From contig NC_134848.1 of NCBI RefSeq assembly GCF_965363235.1, positions 60,598,181 to 60,662,180 on the forward strand: DNA of 64,000 bases, in the 5' to 3' direction. Origin of the DNA: Mytilus galloprovincialis. Lineage: Eukaryota; Mollusca; Bivalvia; Mytilida; Mytilidae. The position numbers and the translations under genes are program-made. Each line of letters begins with the position of its first letter. Within the stretch, counting starts at the first letter, position 1. The notes under the pieces were generated by a model. That model saw only the letters and a list, made by a program, of their open reading frames with translations. It ran no database searches and was not told the DNA's origin. Below are positions 1 through 58,689 of the stretch, one piece after another.

Positions 1-2605
1 CGAGATGTGACCTGAACGATTACGCCTGGGACACAGGGTGTCCGCATCCAACTTTACCAAAAGAAGCAAAGCCAAGATATCACGTTGGGCCTGCTGCAAT
101 ACGTATGTATATTTGCCGAGGCGCTGTCAGTTTTCTTTTAAATAATGAGTTTGGTATATGTCGCCTATCTTCTATTACATGGTTTGGTATATCTCGGTTC
201 TCATTTTGATATGCTTACTTAGACTATGTCCGTCCATAAAATAGGTTTTAATGTTTAAAAATGATGTCTTAAGCATCAGGTAATATCAATAACATTGAGA
301 GAGGAAATGGGGAATATGTCAAAGAGATCACAACCCGACCAAAGACCATACAAAATTCGAAGGCCACCAATGGGTCTTCAACGCAGTGAGAAAATCCTGT
401 ACCCGGATGTGGTCCTGAGCAGGCCCCTACACAATATATCTATTAATTTAACATCGTGGTAAGTGCGGTGGTTGACATTTACTCGTATCTTTATGCGTGC
501 AACTTAGGACAGTTGGAATTCCGATCAGCTCTGTAATAGCCGACAACCTGTATACCAGCTGCAATAGTTTGCACCTGTCCTAAGTCAGAAATCACTAGTT
601 TTTGTTTGTAGATGTGGTTCATTAGCGTTTCTTGTTTCTCGTTTTGTATATAGATTAGACCGTTGCTTTTTCCCGTTTAAATACTTTTACACATGTCATT
701 TTATGGCACTTTATAGCTTGCTTTTCGGTGTGAGCTTAGGTTACATGTTAAAGACCGCACTTTGATCTATAATGGTTTACTTTTACAAATTGTGACTTGG
801 ATGAGAGAGTTGTCTCGTTGGCAATCATACCACATCTTCTTATATCTATATTTTGATTGTTGAGAATATGTTTGTTGATAAAAATTGTTACCGAAAGACT
901 CATGTTAAAACACGTCTTCCTTGTTCTCACACAGTGACCAACATTATTTTATATTGTCCCTTAAGTAGTGAACTACCAAAGTATTATATCCGTTTTGTGC
1001 ACATGCCAATTTATTTCCAAGTAATTTGAATAGAAAGCACTTATGAGAAAAATTGTAAAATGAACTGGTAAAGAATATACATAATAACAAAAATGCAGAA
1101 TTTCATAAAAATGACCATTATTTTGAAAGTGGTTTCCAGTACAACTATGCAATATCTTATATAGAACAGTCGCGCAATGTGTAGCACCTATTCAGGACGC
1201 TATTCATTTTATTTTGTAATTAGGGAAAGTTCTGCTAGATATTAAATATCGCTATACGCTATATAAAACATTCCCTCACAAACATTTTGATCCAAAATTA
1301 ACATCAGTAGCAAGAAAAGTGCAAAAATTAAACCTGGCAACATGCTTAGTTCCTATCTATAGAAATCATGAAATAAAAACTCCGCGAAAATTAATCACAT
1401 TGCAATATAACGTCATTTAAACTATACTGGTACCTGTATTTTGCAGCTGAAGAACCACTACCACTAGGTTATAAGACAGGAAATGAACCTGCACCTAAAC
1501 CTTGTGAAGGAAAACGAACAATAGACGCGTTCAACGATAATAACCTGTATAAATCTTTAGAAAAACTTCTAGATGAGGGTAAGTACAGTTGGTTTAACAA
1601 TGTAAATGAGTAATGTTACAACCAGCAAAGAGATAACTGGACTGTCAATGTGGTCTTTACACAACAATTGTACTACTCAATGTAACAGTGAGAAAAAGAA
1701 AAGAAAAAACAACAGGAAAATTAAGAAATAAAGAAATAAAGTATTTATTTCGTCAACAATCACATTCATAAGTTTTTAAATTTACATACAGTCACTGTGT
1801 GCAAATCCTAGTTCTGACGACCTAACATAAGGTGGTTCACAAAACTACAGGAATATAACTCTCTAAAACCAGCAGAACGTTTTACAAGTTTTTATTACTT
1901 AGGAAATAGCTTCTGAACATCAAACATAGTGTTTGTCCAACTGCTATGTTTACATTGAACTGTTTCCGGTTTATTGAATTTTTCATATATTTTATAAAAA
2001 CAGTTATGAAAAATAAACAAGTAAATATGGTATTGAGATTAGTCGTTATTACTAAACTCGTCAAATAATTCGTTATACGAGTTGTAACAATGATAAAAAT
2101 ATGTTCCACAATCATGACTCATTTTATGTTAAAGGCTGATTTCCTTAAAATTGTGATAGCTATAGGGAAACATTTAAAAGTAAAACACATTTAACGATTA
2201 GTCATCCCGAAATTGGCGATTGAATTCTAATAGGAGTTATTGCCCTTAGGTGATAATAGTAATTCATGTTTAGAGTTGATTTATTCTAGACAGAATATGC
2301 ACGTGATATGGATTAAATTTATTCACAGTCTCACTGAGAGTATGAAAGATTGAAGTCGATCATTGTTGTAAATGATGTTGCGTATATAGTTATCAAAGGT
2401 ACCAGGATTATAAATTTATACGTCAGACACGCGTTACGTCTACATAAGACTCACCAGTGACGCTCGGATCAAAATAGTTGTAAAGCCAAACAAGTTCAAA
2501 ATTGATTATAATGCACATACTAGTTAGTAATTTCATCTTATTGAAGTCTTTGAGTTTCTTAACACGATATATTTTGTTTCAGATTGGTATTATAGAGGGA
2601 CATAA
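1..2605 (+). CDS. 3' exons of an unrecognised gene, copy A (partial)
   Basis: Three spliced coding segments are visible: 1-102 (5' part lies outside the window), 1,447-1,578 and 2,583-2,605, ending in TAA. Junctions are canonical: donors GTATGT at 103 and GTAAGT at 1,579; acceptors TTGCAG at 1,446 and TTTCAG at 2,582. Both introns are phase 1, so the frame stays open. The encoded end is hydrophilic, with a Pro/Gly-rich stretch, one conserved cysteine (PKPCEGKRTIDAFND), a leucine-rich segment (KSLEKLLDE) and a short final exon, DWYYRGT. Copy B at 21,695-25,648 keeps the same exons, phases and nearly the same protein, while the introns differ by many insertions. This supports real coding sequence. 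I do not recognise the family and see no catalytic motif. Since the 5' end is missing here, the intact gene may begin upstream. Confidence 0.6.
293..455 (+). repeat. Dispersed repeat, copy A only
   Basis: The stretch containing AATGGGGAATATGTCAAAG and CCACCAATGGGTCTTCAAC interrupts the alignment of the two segmental copies; copy B reads straight through near 23,515. A related shorter copy lies at about 9,440-9,545. It looks like a very common mussel dispersed repeat and was probably inserted after the duplication, or lost from copy B. Confidence 0.5.
560..860 (+). repeat. Common bivalve dispersed repeat (GTTGTCTC..GGCAATCATACCACATCTTCTT family)
   Basis: The block ends in GAGAGTTGTCTCG, a short spacer and ATCATACCACATCTTCTT. 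Further copies or pieces with this 3' end lie at about 11,930, 12,540-12,620, 19,910-19,980, 40,900-41,110, 46,180-46,630 and 47,820-47,940. Reverse-strand copies lie at about 4,340-4,440, 51,310-51,420 and 61,440-61,770. It is absent at the matching place in copy B (about 23,600-23,700). No reading frame is shared between copies. Confidence 0.6.
1825..2125. repeat. Old TTAA-type MITE relic shared by both segmental copies
   Basis: AAGGTGGTTCACAAAACTACAGG followed by ATAACTCTCTAAAACCAGC closely resembles the start of the MITE at 13,423 (AAGGTGGTACCTAACACT, ATAACTCTGTAAAGTCAGC). The matching sequence in copy B is at about 24,971-25,280, so this insertion predates the segmental duplication. The right end is decayed. 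Confidence 0.5.
2388..2495 (-). repeat. Degenerate hammerhead-type (retrozyme-like) repeat, copy A only
   Basis: Read on the minus strand it has the family outline: GAGCGTCA, CTGGTGA, GTCTTATGTAGAC, then CGTAACGCGTGTCTGACGT. The core is broken: CTGATGA has become CTGGTGA and GAAA has become GTAA. The element is missing from the matching intron of copy B (about 25,530-25,580), so it postdates the duplication or was lost there. Confidence 0.6.
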
Positions 2606-6437: not shown

Positions 6438-6450
6438 GGTTATTTTTAAA

Positions 6451-8595: not shown

Positions 8596-8939
8596 TAACA
8601 CTTCTTAATGTGAGAATTTACGAAGTATTAACTATGATGGTTATTTGATTAACGATTAAATTCAAATGCATTATGCATTTGTGTTTCTAGTAATGCATAT
8701 TTCTACACGAAATCATATCCATGGAATTGTTAGATAAAAACATGTATAATTAAAAATATATCTGGTTTGAAACCATGTATCTTGAAAAAAAGCTTTTAAA
8801 CGTTTAGTACTGTTTTCCCTACGGTGTCCTATTGTTGCTTCTATGTCAATTTCTCTTTGGTGGAGCGTTGTATTTAAAATATCCTACAATATACTCTGGT
8901 TTAAATATTTATTAAAGCAGTCAAAGATTATTTTAGTTC

Positions 8940-9055
8940 GTTCTTTATTTGGTCTTAACTTTTTTGGATATGAGCGTCACTGGTGAGTTTTTTGTATTTA
9001 GACGAAACGCGCGTCTTGCGTACTAAATTTAGTCCTGGTATCTATGATGAGTTTA
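8940..9055 (+). repeat. Degenerate hammerhead-type repeat
   Basis: ATGAGCGTCAC, TGGTGAG, a lengthened stem II (GTTTTTTGTATTTAGAC), GAAA, then CGCGCGTCTTGCGTACT. GAAA and the GTC cleavage triplet remain, but CTGATGA is CTGGTGA, so cleavage activity is not expected. Confidence 0.6.
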
Positions 9056-9720
9056 TTTATTGCTTGCTTGTTTCAAGTCACGATGATATACACATTCAAG
9101 CTACAAAATGCAAAGTTGATCGTTGATGATTCTTCTGACAGTTGATAATTTGTTTTATCTATTTGATGATTTCTGTTTTCCTATTGCAGCTATCTTCCAG
9201 TCCTCGCAGCACAGTTTATCTAATTTTATTTTTTCTAAACCATTTCGATCCTTTTATCCCCGTCGTTATCACTTACACAACTTTCACAACATACACAACT
9301 TACACATTAATTATTCATTTGTTTTCTTATTTCGTCTTTAATATGCATTTAAGATTTATCTTTAAACGTTAGGCATGCCAAAACCAATCAAATCATGTAT
9401 TTAATAAAGTGTCCTGTCAGTATAGCAATACATAAAAAATAAAATTGAGAATAGAAATAGTGAATGTGTCAAAGAGACAGCAATCCGACCAAAGAGTGGA
9501 AAACAGTACCAGGCCATAAATGGATTTATAATACAGCGAGACAATCAATGATCAATCTAAATGCATACAGTAAACCATATGTATCTCGGGATACATAAGA
9601 TAGTTAGTTTTTATAATGTCATGAGATTGCTGTCTCATATAGCTGACAAAAGTCTGACCATGAAAAAAGGTGGAAGATACAAAAGTAAAATTTAAGACTC
9701 CAACCGGAGGTAAACCGAAC

Positions 9721-10099: not shown

Positions 10100-11447
10100 A
10101 AAACAGACCAAAAAAACCCGACGAAAAGAAGAAAAAAGTCAACAATACACTACAAAAAAACTACAGATTGGCAAACATGAAATATACCAAAAACAGTGTC
10201 GAACTCATGAGCTCGGGAAGGTAAGATGTTTCTGATTAACAAGTGGTACAAGTCGTGTTGATAGTGTTAGTACAACACGTGATTCGTCCTTAAGTTGTAA
10301 GTTGTACACATGAATATTCAACAGAAACGGATTTGTCGTATAAGGGAATTACATGCAAAAAAAGTATATGAAATTTTAATTTCTCGACCGACATAATTCA
10401 CATAAATATATAGTGTTGAAAGTTTCTGAACATTCCTACATTCATAACCTTAAAGTTTTGCCAACGAGATAAGTATGTACTAACTAAACATCTCACTTAC
10501 ATGTTTATGAAAGTCATATAAGACTCATCTTTGAGCAAAATAAACAGTCATTATGGGTAAAAATATCAACTTTTAGAATCTTCTTGTTGAAAACTGTTGT
10601 GATTTATTATAAATGACATGTCGTGTTCAATACCAAAGTCAAAAGCTATTTTTCACATTGATGCATGGGATTTCTTTAAAATAATTACACGAACATACAC
10701 GAAGTTGATGAACGATTTGTGTTAATGTATTTTTCACATTTGTTCAAATTGATTCATTGACAATCTACAATTATTACAAAAAAACCGAAAGTAAAATACC
10801 CACCATATATCAACATGAACAGCACAAAAATATTACTATCTTATTGGTACATACCAAGTGCAAAGTGACGTACACAGATTCGAAAATTTTTCATGAATAA
10901 AAGAGGTTATTCAATATAGAAAAAATTGACAGAAAACTAAAAGCACAACCACGACATTATAACAACAATAGTAAAGCGTAGTAACCTCATTTGAAGTTAA
11001 CGCTACATCAAGTAAAGTCCACCTTCAGCGGAAAGAAGAAATGTTACAAAAACAGCAACTAATAACAAGTTTCCCAAGCTACGAATGTTTCTCAGTTATT
11101 CGAATCAGAAGATCATAAAAATATTAATGAAAAGATATGTGAAAACTCTCCATCATATTCCAAATGTACAAAAAGTAATAATTGTAGGTCAGAGATGAAT
11201 CAGTTATGAATCTCGTCTCGTACCAATAAGCTATTTAGGGCCCTTAAATGACCAGTGTAAAACAATTCAAACAGAATATAGTTTGTAAATACACTCATCA
11301 TATATACCGTGATTAAAATTTGATATATTCGCACAGACGCTTGTTTCATCTACAAAAGACTCATCAGTGACGCACGCATCTAAACATGTAAAAGGCCAAA
11401 ATAGTACGAAGTATTTTTTTCATTTAATATATGCATTTCACTGACAG

Positions 11448-15504: not shown

Positions 15505-15810
15505 GACAGCCCAGTAGTCAGCACTTCGGTGTTGCCATGAATATTAATTATGTGGTCATTTTCATAAATTTCCTGTTTACAAAACTTTGAATTTTTCGAA
15601 AAACTAATGATTTTCATGTCCCAGAAATAGATTACCTTAGCCGTATTTGGCACAACTTTTTGGAATTTTGGATCCTCAATGCTCTTCAACTTTGTACTTG
15701 TTTGGCTTTATAACTATTTTGATATGAGCGTCACTGATGAGTTTTATGTAGACGAAACGCGCGTCTGGCGTACTAAATTATAATCCTGGTGCTTTTGATA
15801 ACAATATATT
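15505..15810 (+). mobile_element. 5'-truncated hammerhead-ribozyme retroelement (retrozyme-like)
   Basis: The stretch from CCCAGTAGTCAGCACTTCGG to TTTTGATAAC matches the second half of the 356-bp unit seen at 22,813-23,168, followed by one ribozyme copy. It starts inside the unit, a 5' truncation as expected from target-primed reverse transcription. It sits inside the Penelope-like gene and forms the left part of the 790-bp insertion flanked by TATG (15,501-15,504 and 16,295-16,298). Confidence 0.7.
15728..15771 (+). ncRNA. Type I hammerhead ribozyme, intact core
   Basis: Stem I is GCGTCA (15,728-15,733) pairing with TGGCGT (15,766-15,771): A-U, C-G, U-G, G-C, C-G, G-U. CTGATGA follows at 15,734-15,740. 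Stem II is GTTT/AGAC closed by a TATGT loop, with one G-U pair. GAAA follows, then the stem III segment ACGCGCGT, a palindrome. The cleavage triplet GTC ends at 15,765. All core nucleotides needed for hammerhead cleavage are present. Stem III is too short for a stable hairpin in one molecule but palindromic, so dimeric action is expected, as known for Penelope-associated and metazoan retrozyme hammerheads. Confidence 0.8.
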
Positions 15811-15812
15811 TA

Positions 15813-15916
15813 AGAGATAACTGTATTGTATTTGAAGCTTTAAGGACGTCTATCGGTAGTTTTACTGTCGCAAATTTAGTTTACCGCAAAGCTTCTAATG
15901 CAATACAGTTATCTCT
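15813..15916. repeat. Short foldback element
   Basis: AGAGATAACTGTATTG at the left is exactly complementary to CAATACAGTTATCTCT at the right. The arms extend imperfectly through GAAGCTTT/AAAGCTTC around a roughly 50-bp centre. It lies within the 790-bp insertion, directly after the retrozyme-like copy. Confidence 0.7.
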
Positions 15917-16907: not shown

Positions 16908-17290
16908 TTAGTTCTGTGACAGCATGAAGGAATAGTTCTTCAGTAAACTGTTGAAAACCATGGCTGATAGTTCCTTATGCTTCAGTTTAATGGAGTACAA
17001 TTTTTTACTAGCATTTACCATTACATGATATCTGTCACTACTCTTGAGTATATTAGAATGTGGCAGTAGTTTCGCTGCTCTATTGTAACCAGTTGAACCG
17101 TCATCACCAGCTAATTCTCTCATTTTAACACCTCTGTTGTCCAAATCTTTTATCATTTCAACAACCATATCTGGTTCCATGCCTTTGGCAGATCCTGTCC
17201 AGTTTTTCGCACATTTATGTTTAGGGACTGGAATTCCTTTTTTCTGTGCATTTTTACAAATGCGACATCCTTTGCAACGAATGGAATAAT
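16908..17290 (-). pseudogene. Mutator-like transposase fragment (central region)
   Basis: Minus-strand translation shows RCKGCRICKNAQKKGIPVPK, then HKCAKNWTGSAKGMEPDMVV, then ELAGDDGSTGYNRA and further sequence to SFMLSQN. The C-x2-C and N-W-x-G-S-x-K-x-M-E-P-D pattern and the G-D-D-x-S-T motif match the Mutator-like transposase domain found in many molluscan repeats. GDD probably holds one catalytic aspartate, an inference from the family. Only the centre of the protein is here. The N-terminal part may be the piece at 20,590-21,160 on the same strand. Confidence 0.7.
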
Positions 17291-21694: not shown

Positions 21695-24600
21695 ATTACC
21701 AGCGACAACAACTTTTATGCACCTACCTACGGAGATTTCAATCCGAGATGTGACCTGAACGATTACGCCTGGGACAAAAAGTTTCCACATCCGGTTCTAC
21801 CAAAAGAAGCAAAACTAAGATATCACGTTGGGCCTGCTGCAATACGTATGTATATTTGCCGAGGTGCTGTCAGTTTTTTTTTTAACTGATGAGTTTGAAT
21901 ATCCCCTCTGGTATCTTTTGCTCCTTGTCCTCTAATATCCAGTCTGGTATCTTTTACCCCTTTGTCCTCTAATATCCCGTCTGGTATCTTTTACCCCTTG
22001 TCCTCTAATATCCCGTCTGGTATCTTTTACCCCTTGTCCTCTAATATCCCCTCTGGTATCTTTTACCCCTTGTCCTCTAATATCCCGTCTGGTATCTTTT
22101 GCTCCTTGTCCTCTAATTTCCCCTCTGGTATCTTTTACCCCTTGTCCTCTTATATCCCCTCTGGTATCTTTTACCCCTTGTCCTCTAATATCCCGTCTGG
22201 TATCTTTTACCCCTTGTCCTCTAATATCCCCTCTGGTATCTTTTGCCCCTTGTCCTCTAATATCCCGTCTGGTATCTTTTACCCCTTGTCCTCTAATATC
22301 CCCTCTGGTATCTTTTGCCCCTTGTCCTCTGATATCCCCCTCTGGTATCTCTTACCCCTTGTCCTCTAATATCCCGTCTGGTATCTTTTACCCCTTGTCC
22401 TCTAATATCCCGTCTAGTATCTTTTACCCCTTGTCCTTTAATATCCCCTCTGGTATCTTTTGCCCTTGTCCTTTAATATCCCCTCTGGTATCTTTCACCC
22501 CTTGTCCTCTAATATCCCCTCTGGTATCTTTTGCCCCTTGTCCTCTAATATCCCCTCTGGTATCTTTTACCCCTTGTCCTCTAATATCCCCTCTGGTATC
22601 TTTTGCCCCTCGTCCTCTAATATCCCCTCTGGTATCTTTTGGCCCTTGTCCTCTAATATCCCCTCTGGTATCTTTTGCCCCTTGTCCTCTAATATCCCCT
22701 CTGGTTTCTTTTACCCCTTGTCCTCTAATATCCCGTCTGTTATTTATTTGGCTTTTTGAACTATTTTGATCTGAGCGTCACTGATGAGTCTTATGTAGAC
22801 AAAACACGCGTCTGGCGTATAAAATTATAATCCTGGTACTTTTGATAACTATTTACACCACTGGGTCGATGCCACTGCTGGTGGACGTTTCGTCCCCGAG
22901 GGTATCACCAGCCCAGTAGTCAGCACTTCGATGTTGACATGAATATCAATTATATGGTCATTTTTATAAATTTTCTGTTTACAAAACTTTGAATTTTTCG
23001 AAAAACTAAGGATTTTCTTACCCCAGGAGTAGATTACCTTAGCCGTATTTGGCACAACTTTTTGGAATTTTGGGTCCTCAATGCTCTTCAACTTTGTATT
23101 TATTTGGCTTTTTGAACTATTTTGATCTGAGCGTCACTGATGAGTCTTATGTAGACGAAACACGCGTCTGGCGTATAAAATTATAATCCTGGTACTTTTG
23201 ATAAATAATTACCCCTTGTCCTCTAATATCCCCTCTGGTATCTTTTTCCCCTTGTCCTCTAATATCCCCTCTGGTATCTTTTACCCCTTGTCCTCTAATA
23301 TCCCCTCTGGTATCTTTTGCCCCTTGTCCTCTAATATCCCCTCTGGTATCTTTTACCCCTTGTCCTCTAATATCCCCTCTGGTATCTTTTGCCCCTTGTC
23401 CTCTAATATGGTTTGGTATAACTCGGTTACCATTTTGCTATGAATTTTCTTATAGGCTATGTCCATGAACTAGGTTTTAATGTTTAAAAAAGATGCCTGA
23501 AGCATCAAGTAATATCTATTCATTTACCACAGTGCAGTGGTTGACATTTACTGGTATCTTTATGAGTGCAATAGTTGATATTCTGATCAGCTCTGTAAAA
23601 GTCATTGATAAAACTATTTCACCACTTGTGTTGTTTTATGTGTCATTTGGGTCGCTTTCTTATTGAATTGTAACTCCACTTCTAAGTTATTTTGTTTTAT
23701 ATTTGTTGATAAAAATTGTTACCAACAGACTCATCAATGTTAACACATTTTTATTCACACAGAGACCCACGTTATTTGATATTTTCTCTTAAGAAAGTAA
23801 CTACTAAAATATTTAAACAATTGTGCGCAAATGGCAATTTATTTCCAAGCCATTTGTATAGAAAAGGCAGTTATTAGAACATGACTTCGTTCCCGCTCAA
23901 GATAAATTGTCATGTGCTGGCTTAATAAAACACGCAATACAAATTAGAATTCACTGGCGTGGAATAAAAACAAACTAATTGTAAAATGAACTGAAAAGAA
24001 TATAACAAAAATACAGACTTTTATATAAATGACCAATATTTTGAAAGTGGTTTCCAGTAGAACTATGAAGTATCGTATACAGGACAGTCGCGCAATGTGC
24101 AGCACCTATTCGGGACGCTATTCATGTTATTTCGTAAGTAGGGAACGTTCTGCGAGAGATTGAATATCGATATACGCTATAAAAAAACATCCCCTTTCAA
24201 AAATTGCGAATCCTTAATTAACATCAGTAGCAAAAGAAGTGAACAAATTAAACCTGGCAAAAAGCTTAGTTCATAGCTATAGAAACCATGAAATAAAAAC
24301 TCCGCAAAAATTATCTAAAGTGGAATATAACGTCATTTTAACTATACTGGTACCTGTATATTGCAGCTGATGAACCACTGTCACTAGGTTATAAGACAGG
24401 AAATGAACCTGCGCCTAAACCTTGTGAAGGAAAACGAACAATAGACGCGTTCAACGATAATAACCTGCATAAATCTTTAGAAAAACTTCTAGATGAGGGT
24501 AAGTACAGTTGGTATAACTATGTAAATTAGTAATGTGACACCAACACAGAAATAAACTGGGCTGCGTTTAATATCGCAGCGGCTACATAGGGCTACGTAG

Positions 24601-28630: not shown

Positions 28631-28643
28631 GGTTATTCTTAAA

Positions 28644-30789: not shown

Positions 30790-31125
30790 TAACTGTAATA
30801 AATTTAAACATGAAATTTTAGAAAATGGTTAACAACTGTGTTACACTGTTATTTCTTAATATGAGCATTTAGAAAGTATTTACTTTGGTAGTTATTGGAT
30901 TAACGATTTAATTCAAATGCATTATGTATATGTGTCATTGGTTATGAAGATTTCTTCATGAAATAATATTCATTGAAATGGTAACTTAAAAAATGTATAA
31001 TTACAAATATATCTTTTATTAAACAATGTATTCAAAACAAAAATGAAATAAGCTTTATTATTTTCCATACGGTGACCTATTGTTGCTATCTTCTATGTCA
31101 ATCGGAGGACTTACCTTGTTTGTGT
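30790..31125. other. 3' flank of receptor copy B
   Basis: Aligns with the copy A flank until about 31,105 (CCTATTGTTGCT..TCTATGTCAAT), where the duplication ends and Penelope-like sequence begins. No gene. Confidence 0.55.
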
Positions 31126-32213: not shown

Positions 32214-32339
32214 AAGTATAGATTATGTGTACTGACGTTGTTTATCATCGTAATAACGTGTTATAGTATTTCTTTATTTGTTTTTTTAATATTAATTTTA
32301 CTGTTTAGTCTATTTTTGGAGATATCCATCTGACGTGAC

Positions 32340-35110: not shown

Positions 35111-35317
35111 CTATTTCTTGAATTCGAGGAACACAACTTAGGTTTAGGTTTTGATAGTATAATATTCTGTCTTAATCAACACATCGGCCCAATAGTTTGA
35201 AGGCACTCTAACTGCATGCCAGTCTACACTTTACACACAATTCGTCTTGCCTATGTGTTTAATACCTATCCATGTAACGTTTGTTTTGTCTAAGTTTATT
35301 TCAATCTATGAACAAAT

Positions 35318-35780
35318 TATGGCTTTTTAACTGTTTTGACCCGAGCCTCACTGATGAGTCTTATGTTGACAAAACGAGCGTCTGGCGTATTAAATTATAA
35401 TCCTGGTACCTTTGATAACTATTTACACCACTGGGTCGATGCCACTACTGGTGGACGTTTCGTCCCCGAGGGTATCACCAGCCCAGTAGTCAGCACTTCG
35501 GTGTTGACATGAATATCAATTATATGGTCATTTTTATAAATTTCCTGTTTACAAAACTTTGATTTTTTCGAAAATCTAAGGATTTTCTTATCCCCAGGAG
35601 TAGATTACCTTAGCCGTATTTGGCATAACTTTTTGGATTTTTGGGTCCTCAATGCTCTTCAACTTTGTATTTGTTTGGCTTTTTAACTGTTTTGATCTGA
35701 GCGTCACTGCTGAGTCTTATGTTGACGAAACTCGCGTCTGGCGTATTAAATTATAATCCTGGTACCTTTGATAACTATTA
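35318..35780 (+). mobile_element. Retrozyme-like element, second head-to-tail ribozyme dimer
   Basis: Same organisation as 22,743-23,207. Predicted cleavage sites at 35,382/35,383 and 35,738/35,739 again define exactly 356 bp. The interior, including the ACTGGG/CCCAGT and GCTGGTG-type pairing arms, is almost the same. Both ribozymes are damaged: the first has GCCTCA in stem I and AAAA for GAAA; the second has CTGCTGA for CTGATGA. This copy is therefore older or relaxed. It lies about 700 bp upstream of the Apple/VMO-I gene. Confidence 0.8.
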
Positions 35781-36499: not shown

Positions 36500-39400
36500 A
36501 TGCAAGGATATGTTATCGCTTCGATATGTAGCTTCCTATTTCAAAATGCGGTGTCGGCTGTTGGAAATTATCAGACGAGAACAGAATACTTTAGAGTAGA
36601 AAAGAATAAGAAAATCAGGTCAGTGAATCTCACAGCCATAGGGAGAATGTCTGAAAGTCAATGTGCAGTATTTTGTTTGACTTTCAGTGACAGATGTTGT
36701 GAGATTACTTATATTAATTCGACTCAAGAGTGTAAACTTGATCAGTCCGGATGCTGTCATACGAATTTTGACAATGTATCTGGTTCAAACATCCTACATA
36801 CCAGTCGTAAATATGTCGGTAAGTCTAATCTTCACTTATAATTTACTTATAATTAAAGGCAATGGAAAAATGTTCATAATAGGGGAAGTCTAGGATACCC
36901 TGATATATTTCCCTTTTTACAGTATGTGTTTAAGTACGGCCATTGCTTTGCAAAAGAAAAGCTATTATTTCCATTGTCAACTTTAAAAAAAAGCTTTTCT
37001 CATCGCTTATTTTAACACGTATTACAATCTGAAAACGTTTAAAAATAGGAATACAATATTATTTCTTAAACTATGATATCTTGTACAGTATAGTAAGCTA
37101 TAAAATGCATCAGATGACAATTTAATAGAGAGAGTCAATAGTCCGATTTGCTTTCTTCTTTAGAAAGGTAGAAAGAGCATGTTAAAGTAACCACGTTATA
37201 TTTATGTTGAATAGACACTAGTTTAAGCTTGTTCTTGAGAGTGTCAATCTTCTTTTAAACTTATGTTAATTTTCTTACTTTAAACATGATTTAAACAAGC
37301 TATTTGTTGCCAATTTCTCATATATACTCACACCGTTTGAACTTGTAGTGGGGGTAGATTTTTGCAAAGTTCAGGGTTTTTTTCTTTGTCTTTGAGTTTG
37401 TTTACTTGCGTTTAGTTTGTTTTGTGTCATCATGGTCATGAATGTAAGCACAATATCTTTTCTTTTCTTTTTTTAAAATTCAAAAGATGAACAATTACCT
37501 GATGGAAATTGAATATGAAAAGTCTTTCTAATATACTTAAATTATGCTTCAAATATTAAACATAAGTTTATTAAACTGCAATATGATTTTGTGCATTATA
37601 ATTTTGTGGAAGACAATTTTGATACAGTATTGTTCTAGGTTAAAAAGTGTTTTTCGTAAAATAATTGCATGGACAGACGATAGTCACTTAACAAATAAAT
37701 TTGTATCTGAAAGTCTATCTTGTTCATTTTGTTGATAAATACTCAACATTTGTTTAAACAAACTTGCACTTATGATCAAGATCCATAATAAATTATATAT
37801 CAATTTGTCAAGACATAATGTTGCAACCTTTAAGTAAAAATATAAAGCTGGTGCAATCTTTATAAAGATGGGAAGACATTTTTTTTAAATAACCTTAATA
37901 AACCTGATAATACACTAAAGGATAACACGCTTTACTTTGTAAGAGGTTGTTTTTATCAATATTTGTTTTAACTGCATAGGATTTGTGTCAGTTGCTTTTA
38001 AAATTTTTTGGAAGTTTCGTTCTTTTTCTTTTATACATATGATTACATTTGTTTAATACGCAAGAATTTTCAATGATAGGAAAAATGTATATACTGCTGC
38101 TAGTCAAGAACCTTGTGAATGCTTCTTTCTAATCTGTATGCAGCTCTTTCGTTTTTTTTAGCGTTTAACGTCGGAACAAGGACTATTGGAATTGTTGTTG
38201 ATTTTGGCTATATCTCATTTAAGGATGTTTGCTCCTCTGTTTTAGAATAACAAGGTTTTTAAAAGACTGTTTTAGATTAATAGAATATGAATAAGGGAAC
38301 ATAAAAATTAGGGAAAATTTTTAGGTCCGTGATCTAGTTTTTGAGATATAAACATTTAAAAATGGCGGGAAATTGTTCTCTCTAGATTTTCCTTACATTT
38401 AACATTGACACCTTTTTCCTTTCAAAAGCTATGAAATAATAACAAGGATTTTATAAAATTTTCAGAAATGGCTATTTAAACTATATGCAATAAATTTATG
38501 GAAAGAAAAGTAGGGGTCAGTGGTCAAAATTTTTATTGGCACTACGTGAATAAAACTAGAGGAGTCCGAATGTCTGACATAAAGTCAAAAACAAAAGGAG
38601 CGAAAATTGTTTTGCAATGGTTGTTGACATCTATATGTTGATTGATTGTTTTTTTTTGTTTAAATTCCATCCATTTTGAGGAAGGTTTTTTTTTTTTACT
38701 ATTTCAGGCTATAATAAGATATTGTCTGTAACTAATGGTGGATATTTTGGTAATTGGGCAAATGAAGAATTTTGTAGAAAAGGTCTTTATGCTGTTGGTT
38801 ACAGAATGAAAGTATGTATACTTCTATGATAATCGTTAAATAACTATCATTAAAACGTTAAGTTAAGACTATTTAACTTCTACAATCAGATACCAACTAC
38901 ACGTGGTGAATATCTTTACTTTATACTAAAAATCGTAACAAAATATCGTCAAAATAAAATAACTATTTGGTTAATTGTGCGAGCAGTAAATGTAAATAGT
39001 TATCAAAAGTACCAGGATTATAATTTAGTACGCCAGACGCGCGTTTCGTCTACATAAGACTCATCAGTGACGCTCATATCAAAATATTTATAAAGCCAAA
39101 TAAGTACGAAGTGGAAGAGCATTGAGGGTCCAAAATTCCAAAAAGTTGTGCCAAATACGGCTAAGGGGACGACCATTTGATATTCTGGGGGGGGGGGGGG
39201 GCAAGAGGATTTTGAAAATAGATAACTCAGCCTTGATAATCACAAAAATAAATGGTTTGTTCTGTGGTAGTTTGAAAATAAATTACCTGACTTGCAATGT
39301 ATAGAAAATAAATAACTCAGCAGGTCTAATCGAAAGTATACGAGATGGCACCAGATTCTTCATAAATTCATCTTTTTTCCCAAAAAAAATCGGGAAACAC

Positions 39401-42400
39401 TTCCCAAATTTTTTAATAACAAAAGTATAAATATTATTTAAATATACTTGAAATGTCTGAAAATTGGTTTCATTTAACTTGAAGTATATTGTCTCAGGAA
39501 ACCTTACCTCACCTTTATTTTAACAGGGTCGTAACTCCATGTAGGAAATTTCAAAACCAAACGCTTGTCTCCATATCAAATTGTGTTCACGGCCTTGCAA
39601 GAAGAAAGTTCTGTTTTCCCTCAGACTTATAGCCCTGATTTTTCGGGATCAATGTTTCTTATTTATTTGTCTTTTGTTCATTGATTCCCCTTCTGTATTC
39701 TGTTAGTGTTGCATTCCTTTTGTAATCTAGTAATTTTGTTATAAACTTGATCATGAGTTTAAAAAAAAAAAAAACAGCAGCCACAGGCTTAACTATGTGA
39801 ATTCCATTTTTGCTTTATCATGCACATTGGTCTTTTGATGTTTTCCCTAGAAACTTCAGTCTTACACTGAATTTATACATTTTGCTTTGAGACCAAAATA
39901 TTGTCAAAAAATTATTAAAACAAAACTTCATTTTCAGATTATGAAAGGGTCTTCCGAACACCCAGAAAGCATGATTTTGCATCATTTGTTCTATAGCTTC
40001 TAGGGCCTTCAGTGGCTCCAAAACCCTTCAAAAAAATGTTTGCCTCGCTCCGCTCGGCATAGTAGGTTGGCCAAAACATTTAAAAGTGCCTAGTTATAAC
40101 TAAACTTAATACTATGTGTATATGCAGTTGGGAATTTAAAAGATTCATTTCTGTAGAGGGGGATGGTTAATCTAATTAAATGTTACATAATGACTTGACT
40201 ATACTATATGTATTATTAATAAACAAAACATTTAAAAAATTGTATGTTTTTCGAATATCAAAAATATAGTTGTGAAAATGAATAATCAGTCCCTTGCTTT
40301 AATGAAAATGAAAAATCTTGCTTCAATAGTGCAGAAAATGAATAATCTGTCCTCTTAGTTTGCAAAAATAAATAACCGATCAAAAACAAATCCTCCTGCC
40401 CCCCCCCCCCCCCCCCCCCCAAAAATATCAAATGGTCGTCCCCTAAGGTAATCTATTCCTGGGATAAGAAAATCCTTAGTTTTTCAATAAGTTCAAGTTT
40501 TGTAAACCAAGTTAACATCAAATCGTCTATAAAAAGTGAAAATACCAAACTCCAAGGAAAATTCAAAACGGAAAGTCCCTTATCAAATGGCAAAATCAAA
40601 AGCTCAAACACATCAAACGAATGGAAAAAATGACATATTCCTTACTTGGTACATGTATTTCCTTATGCAGACAATGGTGGAATAAACCTGTATTTCTTTT
40701 TGTATCCATTTCATGAGTTTTTTATATGATTTTTATAGTTTTTTCTCATGTTGTACTGTTACACCAGGTTAGATAAAGGGTTGGGCGCCGCTAACATGTT
40801 TAACCCCGCCACATTCTGTATGTGGCTGTCCCAAGTCAGGAGCCTGCAATTCACTGGTTGTCTTCTGTTGCTGTGTTACTTATTTGTTTTTTTGTTCTTT
40901 ATTTGCACATAAATTACATGAATTAGGCCGTTAGTTTTCTAGTATGAATTGTTTTACATTTGTCATTTCGGGGACTTTTATAGCTGACTATGTGGTATGA
41001 GCTTTGCTCATTGTTGAAGGCCGTACGGTGACCTAAAGTTGTTAATTTCTGTGAAATTTAGACTTTTTGAAGAGTTGTCTCATTGGTAATCAATGACATA
41101 CACATTTTTTTTTATATAATAGGTTAACATCACATATTTTAGAATCTCCTTGCTGATTACATGTAGTGTCCCATACCATTATGTCAAATCATAAGTCATT
41201 CTCCACATTGATGCAGGGGCTTTCCCCAGATGTGCACTTAAACATGCACACACATACCTTATTTTGATTCAATAATATAAATTATATGTGTCAAAATATT
41301 TCTCACCGGGGGTCACAAGTATTTCGACCAATTCAATGGCAATCTAAAATTATTAAAATCTGAAGTTAAAAAAACCCTCAAAATATCATCAAAGAGAGCA
41401 AGCAAATCAGTCAATAAAGAAGTATCAATATCTAATTGAGTATAAGTACAAAGCCACGTGCCACAGATTACAAAGTGTCTTTAACTCATTTAAAGTTCAC
41501 AATACACCAAGTCCAGTCCACCAGCAGGGGAAAGAAGAAATATTAGAAGTGACTAAATACAACAACCTAATCACAAGGTTCTCAAAACATGAATAAATAT
41601 CAGTAAGTCAAATCAGAAGATCTTACAATACATGTTTGCAATTAATCGTTTAAGGATGTACTTAGGTCAGGTTTATGAATTTTTGTCAGATGTTCAAACT
41701 CCATTGGTTTTTCTTCTACGATACAGGGTAAAATGTATTGCTACATAACACCCATGTTTTTTCATAAAAGAATTGAATATCCCATAAAAGGTATTTTACC
41801 AAAATTGAAACAGATTCTAGATTACTTTTCTTTCGATTTTAGGCCCAAATAATACCAAGGCAAATATAAGGCAAAAGTCCGAGACAGCCTTTTCCCATCA
41901 TTTAAAAAAAAATATCTCAAAAGGAGCTCAATAACCTATCATTTTCTTAGCTTATGGTGTACCTAAACTAATGCTATTCTGACTTATAGCATCAATTTTA
42001 AATTCTAGATTTATTTAATTTTACCTAAGTACACCCTTAATGTATGCATTTCACTGACATTTCATTTCAAAAATATTGTGATGAGATATATTCCAGCACT
42101 AGTCTTAAAGTGATGTGGATTCTTAAAAAATTCTAAAGATCTACTGCTAAATCTTAGATCTAAATTTCTGCAATTTTGCAGCATCATTAAAAATTTTGAT
42201 TTGTCTACGCTTTACACTACTATTACCCATGGTCAATTAAAAGATCGACTTCAACATCTCATTAAACAGAGCTTTTTCTATAAAAATGGAAATCGTAGAT
42301 ACAAATTTCTTGTTTTTGGTTATAATAATTCTACTTTTGTGAAGAGCCACACTGATTCTACCCATAAAATATACTGAAGAGATGATATTATCAAAATGCT

Positions 42401-45400
42401 GGACTTTTTGATTGACAACATATTTGTTGAGTTTGGAGGATTGATATTTCAACAGACAGTCGGTATTACAGACAGTACTAATTGTGCATCTCTACTGGCT
42501 GATTTGTTTTTGTACTCGTATGTAGCAGAATTCATTCAAAACCTTCTAAAAGACATAAAGAAAAAGCACCTTGTGAAATTCTTTAATTTCACTTTCAGAT
42601 ATATTGATGATGTCCTCTCACTGAATAACCCGTATTTCAGCCAATACTTACATCTCATATATCCAAGTGAACTTAAAATTAAGGATACTACTGGTACTAG
42701 GAGGACTGCTTCATACCTTGATCGTTTACTCAATATTGACACAGATAGACGACTTCACACTAAAATCTATGACAAACGGGACGATTTTAACTTCCCAATT
42801 ATCAACTTCCCATTTCTCAACAGTAACATACCCTCTGGCCCATCGTATGGTGTTTACATATCTCAGTTCATACGTTATACTTGTGCATGTTCAAACTATA
42901 CGGAATTCATATACAGGAGTGTGTTCCAACAGAGTTATGAAGAGGAAAGATTAAAATTAACACTCCGTAAATGTTATGGACACCATCACGAATTGGTTGA
43001 TCTAATGATGTTTCTTTGTCTAAACTAACTAACGACATTTTTACCACGTCTTAGATTGTGGTTTATCATCTACGTCGTCTGGTCTTCTAACTACCGAAAA
43101 TGACCTATTCCCAAATATGACTGTTTTGCTGAGTGTAAAGTCGCATTGATATAAGACGTGTCTCGGTATTTGTTCATCCAACATTCATGTATTTAGTTAT
43201 GATGTCCATATGTAGTTATTGTTGGATGTTGTTTTATGTCTTATCGTTTATGGTTTTAATTCTATTTTTCTTTTTCTTTATGTATATAAAAGTAAAGATA
43301 TTAATCATTTAGTTCATTTATATGATTTTTAGGTTAAAAGTAACTATATGCACATGATTCATTTGTGAAAAACCAGGGTTTTAAAACACAAATAATGACA
43401 CCATTACTAACACAATTTTATATTAATATTGTTGTAATGGTTAGAAAAAACATCAAATAACACCATTACAAACTTAATCCCAATTTCCTATTGTAATTTT
43501 AGAAATTTACCTGTGACGTCATTTTTTGTGGCGTTGATACATTCGTGTGACGCATAGTTTATTATTCTGTTGTGCTGTAATTGTGTTTTGTCGCAAATTA
43601 ATCTTAGATGTTCGTTGTTATTCTGTGGTTTACATGGTGAAATGGACTATTATATTAATATTTAATGTATTTCTCTGTCCTGAATGTCCTTGTATTTATT
43701 TGTACTTTATTCCTGTCACGTAATGTTGTTTTTATCGGTATTGTTAACATTGCTATATAAGCGGGAGGTTCGGCAGGCCATTTTTTCTTAAAATGTCCTG
43801 AACCAGGTTAGGAATATGGCAATTGTTATCACATAGTCCGTGTTTATGTATGTTGGCGTTTTTTTTAGCAGTTCCGTTTTGTTTCCTCTTATACCATCAA
43901 GTGTTTCCCTCAGTTTTGGTTTATGACCCGGATTTGTTTCAGTTAAATAGATTTATGACTATTGAATAGCGGTATACTGCTATTGCTTTTATTTACAGAT
44001 CGAAGGACCACATTTAACAGATAAGACAGAACTGAATGACATAGAAATTATCTGTGGGAGTAGAGGGAGTGATCGTTGTGGTGACACGGCAAGTTCTGGT
44101 CAGCAGGTATGGGGAAATTGGACAGGAGAAGCACTTTGTCCAGCTAAGACATTTCTTACCTCATTTTCTCTACAAGTAGAGAAATACAATGTAAGTTGAT
44201 TTAATCTAAAAATGTAACAAATATTTTCTCGATTTAAGCTATTAGAAATCTAAACGAATTTTATTATGAATGATATACTAAAAATTCTTGCAAAACAAAC
44301 CACATGTTTGTTGTGTTCAAATCTCCTTTGTAAGTTTAATTAATTAAGACCATTACAAAATGTCTGTATGGATATACAGATAATTTGCAATATGAAATAT
44401 GCATTGAACTCAAATTTTGAAATTCTAAGCTAGGTGATAAGTTGTTAATGTATTTATTTTTGTCTTTGTACTTTGATATCTATATAATAATGTTTCTGTT
44501 TCTGATTTCAAGAAATATTACAAGGGGACAATATTTCGTATTTCCTATTCCAAAAGATTTTTTTATGGGGACTTAAACAGACTAGCACTTTTGATCTATA
44601 AACATTACTCGGTGTCCGTCATTCATGCAATAAAGAATCTAAGTGAACTCGAATATGTTAAAATTACCTGTGTTTGATTTTGAATTTTTGAATTTTTAAA
44701 CTTTTCTGTTAAACAAAATAAAAAGGAATTGTAATGCCAGAGGTTGATATTGTTCTTTTAATCGCGAGTTTTTTTTTTCTGTAACATTTAATATCATGTA
44801 TAAGTTTAACATACTGAAAATTACGTAACTTTCATACATTTACTACCTTAGTAAAGTTAAAACATTGATGTAAAAAAAAACATCAGGGTAAGAATTAGAG
44901 AAACTGATCAATCAAAAACCTTGGTATTCCATTGTAGCTCTTAGATTGTTATCATTGTTTCATTTAATATTCATTAAGCCCAGTTACCAGGGTTTGGATA
45001 TTGGCATGATGCCGAGGATACATTTTAACAGTATAATTTCTTATCATTATTAATGAAATTGTACTAAAACTAATGTTATGTAAATGTACTAAAGCTAATG
45101 CTATGCTATTGTACTAAATCAATGCCACAATTACTTTAGGCAAAATTCACCTTAGATTCAGCTGTTCTGTTTTGAATTTTTGGGGTTTTCATTTATCTAG
45201 TTTCACTTATCATAGATGCCAGGATAAACATGTTGTACGCGTTCGTCTACAACAAACTCACCAGAGACGCTCGTACCAAAAAAAGTTAAAAAGGCGAAAT
45301 TAAGTATGAAGCTGAAAAGTCGAAAGATTTTGCCAAATACATCTAAGGTAATATTCATAGGGTAGATAATCTTAGTATTTTGAAAATTTCAAATTATTTA

Positions 45401-48400
45401 ATTTTTAAGGCCTGGAGATTTTTAATTTCGATCGTACCAAGTAAGGTTATTTTACAAACTCGTTTCGTGTTCTTGTAAAAATGTCACATATGTTGATATG
45501 CCGAATGGATATTTACGCATACTATAAACAAATATTTGCGAAAATAAATCGTCTTATGTACACATATATGTTTACAAATCTCTACCAGAGATCAAATGAC
45601 ATAGAGGTAACCAGCTATATGTCACCGTACGGCCTTGAAAATGAACAAAACCCATACCGCATAGTATGTGCATGAGCCAGCCAAGTATATATAATCTAAA
45701 TAATTCATTCACAAAATATTTTCCGATTTCCAGAAATAATATTGCTTGAGCCGTTCTTTGTCCTCTGTCACCTTTACAAAGACCTAACAGGTATAAGTGT
45801 GATTTATCCGTTTCTTCTGGTTTTTGCGTAAAAAAAGTCATTGCCATCTTTTGGAAAACACGATGAGGCCGACACCTTGTCAAAATGATAACAAAAGGGA
45901 AGAGGGTGTAGGTCGTATCCCAGGGATAAATAACCTTAGCTGTATTTGGCTTAACCTATCGAAATATTGGGTCCTCAAAGCTCTTTAACTTTTTACTTCA
46001 TTTGACATTTATTCTACCAACTTGGAGATATACATGTTTACTTCATCTGTTGGCGTGCTGATTGAATACGAAAGATTACGTTATGTTCTCTCAACCAGTG
46101 TAACATGTTTATAGAGACAAATAATTACCAGAATATTATACATGTACGTTTTCTCATCGATATTTCATATATAGCTTCATTTTACCACAGTTGGCCTGGA
46201 GATCCTATACTTGGCTGGCTCATGCACATACTATGCGGTATGGGTTTTACTCATTTTCAAGGCCGTACGGTGACCTATAGCTGTTTACTTCTATGTCATT
46301 TGGTCTCTGGTAAAGATTTGTAAACTTATTGTGTATATGTTTAAACCCGCTGCATTTGTTTGCACCTGTTCTAAGTTAGGAGCCTTGATGTTCAGTGGTT
46401 GTCGTTTGTGGTTCATAAATGTTTCTCGTTTCTCGTTTTTTTTATATAGATTAGACCGTTGGTTTAACACTAGTCATGTTTGGGGTCCTTTATAGCTTGC
46501 TGTTCGGTGTAAGCCAAGGCTCCATGTTGAAGTCCGTACGTTGATCTTTAATGGTTTACTTTAACAAATTGCCACTTGGATGGAGAGTTGTTTCATTGGT
46601 ACTCATACCACATTTTCTTATATATATGTGCTATACATTTGATATGATGTTGTTAATTTTTTCCCCTATTCCCGTTTATCACAATCATACAGCACTAGTT
46701 CTCCGTTAAAGCGCCCATTTTATGACTTATTTTGTCCCACCGTTAGAAAGCAAACCTAACGACTTCGAGTAATATACCCGTAGCTTGTTATACTTATATC
46801 TGAGAATTTTTAGATTTCTTTATTATCTATATGTTTGATTTAAATAAAGTTTAGTATAGTTTTCACAACGATAGTGATCGTACCGGCCGTCCATAATGTT
46901 TTCTTCGTAAACCTGAAATTTCCGTAGATGAATAAAAGACCAAGCAGGACAAAATATTTAGTACAACACAGAGTGTGATATAAGTAAAATTTGATCATAA
47001 GGTTACCATAAATAGTTTTATTTATAACAATGGTCATTTATTTCAAATTACATCAGTCTGAAAAACTAAACAAAGTTGAAAACTGCAGAGATTTGTTAAG
47101 CATGTAATCTCCGTGGAATGGTCAAATCTTAACAAACACCAATTTTGTAAATAAACTCCACATCCAATAGATCGATTACGGTGTCAACATTAAATTTTAG
47201 AACAACTTTTATCTTCAGATACTCATATTATGGTTCATAAATGACGAAATCGTCGAAATGTAACCTCCGTGGAATGTAATCTCCGTTGACGTTTTGGTAA
47301 AGGGTGCTTTCTATCACGTCCGCACTTTTTATCGAGTATGGCATGCCAAATAAACATATAAGATATTTATAACGGATGGTGGATATATCACTTAAATATC
47401 AATAATATATTGTTATCAGAAGACATACAAAGACACCATGTACCAATTTTAATAATCAATTGTTTGAATGTAACAGAGTTGCTTATTTCTTAAATCTAGA
47501 AGCAGAAGAAAAAAAAAAAACGGACGTTTGTATAGCAAGTAAATAATGTAAACCCGTTATCAATATTCAAGATATGAAACTTCTATGAATAATATAATTT
47601 TTTTTTATATCGAATTCAACAAGATTTAACAATTATGCAACTCCAAGTAGCCATACAAATTGCTCTTCCTTATGAGTGTTTTCGTATTGCACAAGGAGGG
47701 AAGCTTATAATTACACCACAGCCCGGTCGGATTTTGCTTTTTCCACCGGCCCACCGTGGGCAGCCTACCCTAGCTATAATCTCATTTTTGTAAAAATAGT
47801 GATTTCAAATATTTTATCAGGGCCTTTTATAGCTGTGCTTATTGTTGAAGGCCGTACGGTGACCTATAGTTGTTAATGTCTGTGTCATTTTGGTCAGTTG
47901 TCTCATTGGCAATAATACCACATCTTCTTTTTCATATTATCTGCTTTTTTCAATTAACTGTACTTGCCAGTCTTTTGATTAATCAAAAGAAATTGCATGC
48001 CTACTCCTATGGGTGGGCAGAGGGGGCAAGCTAGAAATTTTGACCACCCGGCGCCCACTCCCACTGTGAACGGGTGGACAAAGCAAAATCCACCTGAGCT
48101 GTAGTGTACTTTCTTTCATTATTAAAAAAAAATTACGACGTCGGCCTAAAGGGGATTATATATATTATTAACAAAACCTTGTACAACATTCTTTTCGAAA
48201 ATAGACACAGTAAAATAGATTAAACAAAACTACCCGTTACAATGATACACTGTATATATATATTACGGTCTGTTTTAGGTGAGGGAATCTACATTTCTGA
48301 ACTCTGTAATTCTTTAGCCATTTTTCGCTCTAGTCAGTAAGAAATATATGAACTTTTCTGTAAAGTTCTTATGTTCAGTTCCTGCATTTGAAAACTTCTG

Positions 48401-56818: not shown

Positions 56819-58689
56819 GATTCAGCTTACTAGTATATTGACTGATTGTTTTAGTAAACTATTCTATATACATTCGGTCATTCTACTGGTCGCAATACAT
56901 CAGGTTGTTTTCTCAAAAACCTTTGTTATCCATCTACAAGTTTACTTACGTGTTTCCCTAGTCAGGAACTGTGTCTTTGTTTCTTAATGGGTGATTTTTG
57001 TTTGCTGCTTTTTTCTTTTTTCTTTTTGGTAATTTGGTAATAATGACATATCGTGAAAATTTCTTTTGCATTGAATCTCCACTTGTGAGGACGAGGGCTA
57101 TTTATGTCTTGACAAAAGTACAAATGTTTGTCTATTTTTTTTAGATTATACATTGACCTCTAGATGTCTTTTTGATTTTTATGTTGCTACGTTGTTTTTC
57201 TTATCGACATATATCAAGCATATTCGTTTATTCCTATGAGAAAGTATTTCCACAAACTTAGAAATATGAGAAACACAGTTTTATTGCAAAATATTTCTTT
57301 CTTATAAAAAAACGAAAAACTACGACACTTAAAACAACATATAAAACTAGAAGACTGATACCAATAAGCTCATCAAGAAACCAGGTTGATCTCAGGTGCT
57401 ACCTATTTACAACGCTTGAAAGCTAAAAGATCGGGATCACAATAATGCGACAGCTTCATCTGTTGTTGCTCGAATCAATGAACGCGTGTGTTATGTCCTC
57501 CGTATTCTGGAATTAAAAATTCAATTAAATTCATTTCAATTCAATACAATATTGTACTTCTATAACATTTAAGCTTGAATCAGGACATCTTTGAACATTA
57601 ACATGACAGTTTACCATTCTTAACACGCACTGAGGTTGACGCTCTCGATGTTATAAGTTGACGGTTTCTTTTCCACCGTGCAGTCTTACATAGAGCTGGG
57701 ATTGTTTTTCTCTCCCCATAAACATATAATCACAAATTTCTAGAATTTAGAACATCAAGCAGTTTGAATAAAAAAAGAATGTTAAAAATAATTGAACCGT
57801 TATTTCGAGTCTATGCATAATATATATAAAGATGATAACACCAATTCAAAATAACGGGATGCACAAAATGTACTTTGATTGCCATTAATTTTATCCCACT
57901 GAAATCAGTCATTTTTTTTCTATATTTTAATTTAGAAAATATTATTTTTTTCAAACTTTTGTATCTGGGCGTCACTAGTAGATCTTGTGTGGACAAAATG
58001 CACTTCTGGCGTATTAAAATATTGAACTTGTTGCCTTTTGTTGGCTGTTGTTCGTGTGTTTCTTTGTCAATTGTGTTCTCCAATTTATTTATATTGTAGT
58101 CCTGTGGTGTTGAGTTGTCATTTTAATGTTATATTTCACATTGCTATACAAGAGGGAGGTTTGGCATGCCACAAAACCAGTTCAACCCACCATGTTTTCC
58201 TTTAAAAAGTAAAGCATTTTTTTTTAAACTGCGTAGTTTGTTTCGGAAAATGATTTATATATTAAAATGGCGTCATACTCTATCTTCATGTTGTCTATCG
58301 AATGTTTAGTTCATTATGAGTGTGCTTTGATGTATGTGTCTGTTGAACCTTTCGTGCAGGCTGATACATTTTCATCATTTTAACTGGGTGCTTACCATCA
58401 AGAAAACACAGACGTGAACTTATACAAAAAAAAAAAAAAAAAAAAAAAAATAAAAAATCATTGCAAAGTCCACTTACATGTATATATATATATATGTGAT
58501 TGAGAATTAAACCATGAAGATATACTCTCTTTAAGTGCATAAAACATAAAACGGAGATAATAAGACAAGTTATCAAATCATAATTATGAGAAATCTAGCA
58601 TTCCTCTTTGACATCAACTGACCACTGATTAAAATTCGACTTCAACAGTGATGATACGATAATGGGTGATATTGATTAAGGATATTAAC
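56819..58689. other. Non-coding region with Penelope-like 3' pieces
   Basis: At 57,952-58,030 is a highly degenerate hammerhead-type repeat (GGGCGTCACTAGTAGATC, CTTCTGGCGTATTAAAAT). At 58,060-58,200 is a piece of Penelope-like 3' sequence (TTCACATTGCTATACAAGAG, GAGGTTTGGCATGCCACAAA), related to 43,720-43,790. A poly-A run lies at 58,427-58,451. No gene. Confidence 0.5.

Follow-up and report, generated by a model that had tools for sequence, protein, structure and literature searches.

How does a small non-coding element, only about 1.3 of its own units long, come to carry two hammerhead ribozymes, and what determines where its copies begin and end? The question is raised by a locus in a stretch of 64,000 nucleotides of Mytilus galloprovincialis (the window, C11:60598181-60662180 of the 1.385-Gb host assembly). 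A sequence-only reading of the window had seen there a retrozyme dimer inside a minisatellite, with two direct hammerhead blocks as its limits and a circular RNA of roughly 356 nt as its product. By its features, not by clone identity, the element fits the animal non-LTR retrozymes, a kind already known in mussels. As argued below, the element, here termed copy A, is quite probably a copy of such a retrozyme made from an RNA circle, by reverse transcription that started at a fixed site and ran for a random distance.

The features of copy A and its surroundings are listed here, with the unit numbered from the predicted cleavage site, that is, u1 (22813) is the first base after cleavage and u356 is 23168.

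21898..22740, no strand: 36-bp minisatellite, left part
22741..23211, + strand: retrozyme copy A, about 1.3 units, by local alignment to tandem units
22775..22818, + strand: hammerhead 1 (type I), RF00163 22.8 bits, core G changed to A at 22801
22813..23168, + strand: full 356-nt unit (u1-u356), predicted content of the RNA circle, from the spacing of the predicted cleavage sites; GC 38%, compared with 33% in the window
23131..23174, + strand: hammerhead 2 (type I), core intact, RF00163 29.3 bits, predicted cleavage 23168/23169
23169..23208, + strand: 3' tail (u1 to roughly u40), reaching the common 3' end of the family, from genomic copy ends
23209..23409, no strand: 36-bp minisatellite, right part

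Copy A runs from u285 through one full unit to about u41-47, and its 3' boundary is ambiguous (23204 to 23215), because the target sequence is similar to the element. The assignment to the retrozyme kind therefore stands, whereas the hammerhead blocks are not the limits of the element: the copy is about 1.3 units long, and it has two ribozymes because it exceeds one unit in length. The minisatellite does flank it, as had been noted, and looks like a landing site only.

The two hammerhead blocks, about 110 nt each and 97-98% identical, are direct repeats spaced 356 bp apart, in agreement with the predicted distance between the cleavage sites. Scoring with a hammerhead covariance model, which the sequence-only reading had proposed, returns Hammerhead_1 (RF00163) matches at 22775-22818 and 23131-23174, but only with a lowered threshold, below the gathering score of 34; since both score less than that, a default Rfam scan of the window gives no match. 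The E-values are 3.7e-5 for the second block and 0.0053 for the first in a 601-base search, and 0.004 and 0.56, respectively, in a whole-window search. With the type I model (E up to 1), further matches in the window are found at 39030-39073 (-), 15728-15771 (+) and 35345-35388 (+), and a 39-nt core pattern with no more than three mismatches occurs six times in the window, compared with 0 in 100 shuffles.

Block 2 keeps CTGATGA...GAAAC, and block 1 reads CAAAAC, with the core G at 22801 (which we take to be G12 in hammerhead numbering) changed to A; the second ribozyme is thus core-intact and the first lacks the invariant G, as originally described. Loss of this G is expected to abolish cleavage. 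Judged from its sequence, hammerhead 1 is probably inactive at its predicted cleavage site, 22812/22813. Consequently, the predicted 356-nt circle is unlikely to be released from the copy A locus itself, because release requires two active ribozymes and the first is without the core G. The non-coding nature of the element is borne out in the six frames of 22743-23207, where the longest stop-free stretch has 94 codons, with stretch ends counted as open.

Then, does copy A have relatives nearby? The window holds 11 pieces of the family, two of which are the halves of one split copy, giving 10 copies. Apart from copy A, they are as follows.

2377..2505, - strand: copy E, 0.37 unit
8944..9059, + strand: copy F, 0.32 unit, diverged (84%)
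11284..11412, - strand: copy G, 0.35 unit, diverged (80%)
15507..15808, + strand: copy C, 0.85 unit, 5'-truncated, hammerhead core present
35300..35779, + strand: copy B, 94% identity with A, about 1.3 units, 5' boundary at 35300 or 35320 according to scoring
38991..39166, - strand: copy D, 3' part of the insertion-split copy
40443..40507, - strand: copy H, 5' part of the split copy D/H
45207..45398, - strand: copy J, 0.62 unit, diverged (78%)
45913..46010, + strand: fragment I (u204-300), without the common 3' end
57926..58049, + strand: copy K, 0.35 unit, 68% identical

Copies A and B hold two hammerheads each because each is about 1.3 units long. The 3' end lies at u36-49 in 9 of the 10 window copies (with D/H taken as a single copy), fragment I being the exception. 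Stem III, which had been described as a short palindrome, is palindromic in copies C and D (ACGCGCGU) but not in copy A (ACACGCGU). The insertion that splits D/H (1,276 bp, 39167-40442) has inverted ends (GGACGACCATTTGATATT... plus poly-G) and a 6-bp duplication, CCTTAG, and looks like a DNA transposon. Copy E has no counterpart in the paralogous segment near 25540. This segment belongs to a segmental duplication, in which 1-9000 and 21744-31100 are 76-94% identical in pieces; two long frames within it (6439-8595 and 28632-30789, the second split over two frames) look, by sequence, like LRR-TIR receptors. Other features of the window include a weak Rfam MIR9555 match just beyond copy C (15813-15916, -; 35.7 bits, compared with a gathering score of 119), a Mutator-like transposase fragment (16908-17318, -; PF20700, E 1.9e-26) and further tandem arrays at 32333-32602 (127-bp unit) and 62313-62579 (unit of about 18-20 bp).

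Across the host genome, a 32-nt core has 9,105 exact occurrences, compared with 0 for the reversed control, and exact motifs had 0 matches in viral contigs and 0 in bacterial and archaeal contigs. At one place (G000:C1:5210240-5210449), two exact hammerhead cores lie in opposite orientation less than 200 bp apart. Two sets of copies were fetched. The best-match set consists of 39 loci from the top matches to the whole element and is biased to long copies; it represents 37 independent loci, because L037, L042 and L045 represent the same insertion, present three times. The position sample takes the first 20 clusters along contig 1, each of which needs one exact core.

The 3' end is located at u39-46 in 53 of the 59 fetched copies (36/39 best-match and 17/20 position-sampled), compared with about 1.3 of 59 expected under a uniform distribution, and the other six end at u51, u52, u22, u34, u4 and u335. 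The 5' ends are compatible with a uniform distribution in the best-match set (KS test, p 0.54, n=39) and depart from it nominally in the position sample (p 0.048, n=20), where they lean towards the region upstream of the hammerhead, a pattern that exponentially distributed lengths would probably produce. Clustering of 5' ends just upstream of the hammerhead, suggested by the window copies, was rejected, the genome sample being much more scattered. An LTR-like reading of the two hammerhead blocks is ruled out by 5' ends that are not fixed among genomic copies. A hot spot at u198-201 accounts for 6 of 57 5' ends (simulated P 0.006; e.g. L015, L020, L043, L049) and is perhaps a pause site of the reverse transcriptase.

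Lengths range from 0.3 to 5.4 units among fetched and window copies, and unit-aligned lengths from 426 to 1760 nt in the 39 best-match copies and from 111 to 1907 nt in the 20 position-sampled ones. An exponential fits both sets, with a mean excess of 393 nt beyond 420 nt for the former (p 1.0, 38/39 copies) and of 436 nt beyond 73 nt for the latter (p 0.31, 18/20). As far as the sequences of the copies go, then, a common 3' end is accompanied by scattered 5' ends and by lengths that are not whole numbers of units and have an exponential tail.

Counts of 28-nt motifs in the genome (no more than three mismatches) are 31,974 for u10-37, 43,116 for u325-352, 23,691 for u219-246 and 18,913 for u47-74, with 0 for all four reversed controls; they are uncorrected for possible differences between the motifs in how well each is conserved and how wide a family it covers. 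The lowest count is found just 3' of u41 and the two highest adjoin it on the 5' side, which is the pattern expected from a start at u41. The profile does not strictly fall with distance, because there are more matches to the hammerhead (43,116) than to the tail (31,974); the u325-352 motif probably captures a second related family as well.

How would such copies be made? In the proposed mechanism, a multimeric genomic copy would be transcribed, its hammerheads would cleave the transcript into 356-nt units, and the unit ends would be sealed to give an RNA circle. A reverse transcriptase encoded elsewhere would then start cDNA on the circle at u39-46, beside a hairpin and about 40 nt downstream of the sealed cleavage junction, pass the hammerhead and go on around the circle, the probability of termination being about the same at every base, and the cDNA would be joined to the same break that primed its synthesis. 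Copy A would be a product of 1.3 turns that landed in the minisatellite, with unit release now probably lost, the first ribozyme being mutated. We infer, then, a circle as the template, priming by the target and a role for the hairpin. For testing the mechanism, the common 3' end and the length law offer a site (u39-46), a hairpin and a genome with thousands of copies. A more specific claim is that the start near u41 is fixed by the adjacent hairpin, and that a trans-acting eukaryotic reverse transcriptase produces cDNA of several turns from a covalently closed 356-nt RNA, stopping without memory after a mean of about 400 nt. If this is true, copies in the genome record how far the reverse transcriptase travelled round the circle, and the role of the hammerhead is to make the circle, not to set the ends of the DNA copies. 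The claim may or may not hold, and we regard the two outcomes as evenly balanced.

The units within a copy bear on the nature of the template. Among the 55 units of 21 multi-unit copies, 33.5 have their nearest neighbour in their own copy (ties counted half), compared with a mean of 1.2 and a maximum of 6 in 500 permutations of the labels; for the other 21.5, an equal or nearer neighbour occurs in another copy. For derived non-CpG alleles common to at least two copies, there are 101 cases in which every unit of a copy has the allele and 89 in which a subset does, whereas the permuted means are 8.6 and 341, respectively (200 permutations). The 89 subset alleles and the neighbours in other copies count against the model, although recurrent mutation or conversion could explain them. 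When a subset allele is found in two copies, its unit index agrees in 10 of the 57 pairs (a count with no chance figure); therefore, there is no sign of ordered inheritance from a parent array. Between copies A and B, in an alignment read by eye, five sites group the blocks by copy and one by position, the latter being a CpG that bears the core G change in both left blocks. Only 2 of 221 indels fall at the junction (u350-u6), a figure lowered because the position sample was chosen for an intact core (u325-356), and 14 of 221 fall at u36-50, somewhat more than an even share (about 9). Likeness of units and few junction indels are thus read from the copies themselves.

Could a circle be unnecessary? 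A linear multimeric read-through transcript of a genomic array, reverse transcribed and truncated at its 5' end, would likewise yield scattered 5' ends and more than one unit, and arrays are indeed present among the best matches. However, unit-specific variants should then be inherited in order, which the few same-index pairs (10/57) do not suggest, and common alleles fill all units of a copy far more often than in the permutations. A separate RNA 3' end at about u41 would also be needed, and we consider this explanation unlikely. Multiplication of the circle from RNA to RNA, with reverse transcription of the resulting multimer, would produce the same likeness of units within a copy, and such replication is raised in the literature (PMC7229834, PMC7761336, in the parts drawn on here). 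It is nevertheless decidedly unlikely, since a further polymerase would have to be involved and an RNA 3' end near u41 would still be needed; the results here neither require nor contradict it.

That the arrays are ordinary satellite DNA expanded by unequal crossing-over, with the hammerhead incidental, would agree with the near-constant length of the tandem unit, and the adjacent 36-bp minisatellite is an array of such a sort. Yet the flanks differ while 53 of 59 copies, sub-unit copies included, have one 3' end, and the exact core is kept in 56 of 64 units (the best-match set plus A and B, chosen by whole-element likeness and not by the ribozyme alone), so this explanation is highly improbable. 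End-to-end template jumping between linear monomers, of the kind known from R2-type enzymes, is hardly credible, because copies should then end at u356, where hammerhead-cut linear monomers end, whereas no copy of the 59 has its end within u350-356 and junction indels are rare (the lowered figure of 2/221), although L064 does end at u4, near the cleavage site.

For copying from a circle with a fixed start, is the start site marked by a structure? The interior of the element had been described as highly self-complementary, a description that the folds do not support. The circular fold of the unit gives -72.3, compared with -71.0 +/- 4.6 for 100 dinucleotide shuffles (z -0.27), the interior folded alone gives z -1.2, and the majority sequence of 45 units, folded as a circle, gives -75.5, compared with -72.0 +/- 5.4 for 60 shuffles. 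Only one local hairpin pairs better than shuffles: in 85-nt sliding folds of the majority sequence, the segments that begin at u29, u40 and u55 have z values of -2.5 to -3.0, and the remaining segments lie between -1.9 and +2.2.

22860..22917, + strand: local hairpin u48-105, from 85-nt sliding folds and the 45-unit majority sequence folded as a circle

This hairpin is located directly 3' of the common copy end (u39-46).

The insertion sites agree less well with the mechanism. Target-primed insertion is expected to leave frequent duplications; however, only 2 of 51 copies have convincing ones, L034 (10 bp) and L062 (9 bp), which counts against the model. Also at odds with it are the six copies with other 3' ends, the nominal departure of 5' ends from uniformity, the hot spot at u198-201, the motif counts that do not strictly fall with distance and the indels at u36-50. 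Apart from these two, a regular target-site duplication was sought in 34 and in 51 copies and not found, and the best reading is that insertion mostly occurs without target duplication. Paired flanks are only slightly more similar than mispaired ones within 20 nt (4.85 vs. 4.35, p 0.005) and 40 nt (6.01 vs. 5.77, p 0.048), with no excess within 150 nt (p 0.74; n=51 throughout). Within 150 nt, L025 (14-nt match) and L058 also score above the control's 99th percentile, but away from the junction. For inverted repeats in the flanks, the mean scores are 4.45, 5.60 and 8.68, compared with 4.30, 5.70 and 8.40 for mispaired flanks. The flanks differ among fetched copies, except for the one insertion present three times, and in 49 copies no sequence preference beyond AT richness was seen by eye. 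For copy A, the phase of the minisatellite would fit either about 8 bp lost or about 28 bp duplicated, alternatives that look alike in a 36-bp array. The paralogous segment 1-290 has neither the array nor the retrozyme; it has only some sequence similar to a single, degenerate unit of 36 bp (alignment score 12, compared with 6.7 +/- 1.3 and a largest value of 13 in 500 shuffles).

Where might the reverse transcriptase come from? Copy C abuts, on the opposite strand, a fragment at 14500-15543 (-) that matches RVT_1 (E 3.8e-6, 27.2 bits, just below the Pfam cut-off of 29.6) and that we would read, from its sequence, as Penelope-like. A loose first look gave 54,721 candidates of this Penelope-like family in the genome. 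The best 120 among those scored comprise the window copy and 119 others that match it at 90-91% identity; in 118 of these 120 the match is free of stops, and some form tandem arrays that repeat about every 3,370 bp. A hammerhead was looked for in 1.55 kb of this abundant family and not found (E up to 5). Copy K was considered as the ribozyme of an upstream Penelope-like fragment and rejected, as no GIY-YIG frame match occurs in the window (E up to 1). A Penelope-like element is a candidate source of the enzyme used by the retrozyme. Elsewhere (G000:C8:61212150-61217956; L068, L069), Penelope-like sequence carries a GIY-YIG-like frame (Pfam E 0.006, below the cut-off), which lies upstream of the reverse transcriptase of the next unit and in frame with it (hand count, with the intervening stretch excluded), and the sequence covered 3' of the last reverse transcriptase is without such a frame. 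This placement, with the absence after the last reverse transcriptase, suggests an endonuclease N-terminal to the reverse transcriptase. Naiad elements have their endonuclease in this position.

How does the element compare with known systems? In M. galloprovincialis, non-LTR retrozymes have units of 350-390 bp and about 5,000 hammerheads, their circles have been demonstrated on northern blots, a copy self-cleaves in vitro with a kobs of about 0.1 per min, and Penelope-like elements are proposed to mobilise retrozymes (Cervera and de la Pena, 2020, PMC7229834). In the parts drawn on, synthesis of multi-unit cDNA from the circle has the status of a proposal (PMC7229834, PMC7761336), for which the common 3' end and the length law are genomic evidence. 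The main-text parts of PMC7229834 on which we draw do not mention that copies have a common 3' end, begin at random 5' positions, can be shorter than a unit or follow a length law, and its supplementary files may hold more; the passages of PMC7761336 drawn on do not mention a fixed start site or a length law.

Like plant LTR retrozymes, the element has hammerheads repeated within one copy and, putatively, a circular RNA intermediate (PMC7229834, PMC7761336). However, plant LTR retrozymes have type III hammerheads in LTRs and 4-bp target-site duplications (PMC7229834, PMC7761336), whereas the element has a type I hammerhead and no constant LTR-like ends, and target-site duplications are mostly not seen. 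Identity with them was rejected, as the type I model matches and the 5' ends are not fixed; because the 5' ends are inconstant, the element has no LTR pair. Penelope-like elements with minimal type I hammerheads (PMC7229834, PMC7761336) share the type I hammerhead and the tandem copies with it; identity with these was likewise rejected, there being no reverse transcriptase reading frame and no stop-free stretch of more than 94 codons in 22743-23207. As in the mussel non-LTR retrozymes described in the parts of PMC7229834 drawn on, we find a type I hammerhead, multimers, low GC and thousands of copies (the 9,105 exact cores). Animal non-LTR retrozymes have a unit of 150-450 bp in dimers to multimers, a type I hammerhead, a GC content below 50%, no protein coding, no LTR, PBS or PPT and, when present, target-site duplications of more than 4 bp. 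With regard to duplications, the element offers no more than the two convincing cases in 51 copies (10 and 9 bp). It has a 356-nt unit in copies of up to 5.4 units, a type I hammerhead, GC below 50% and no protein coding.
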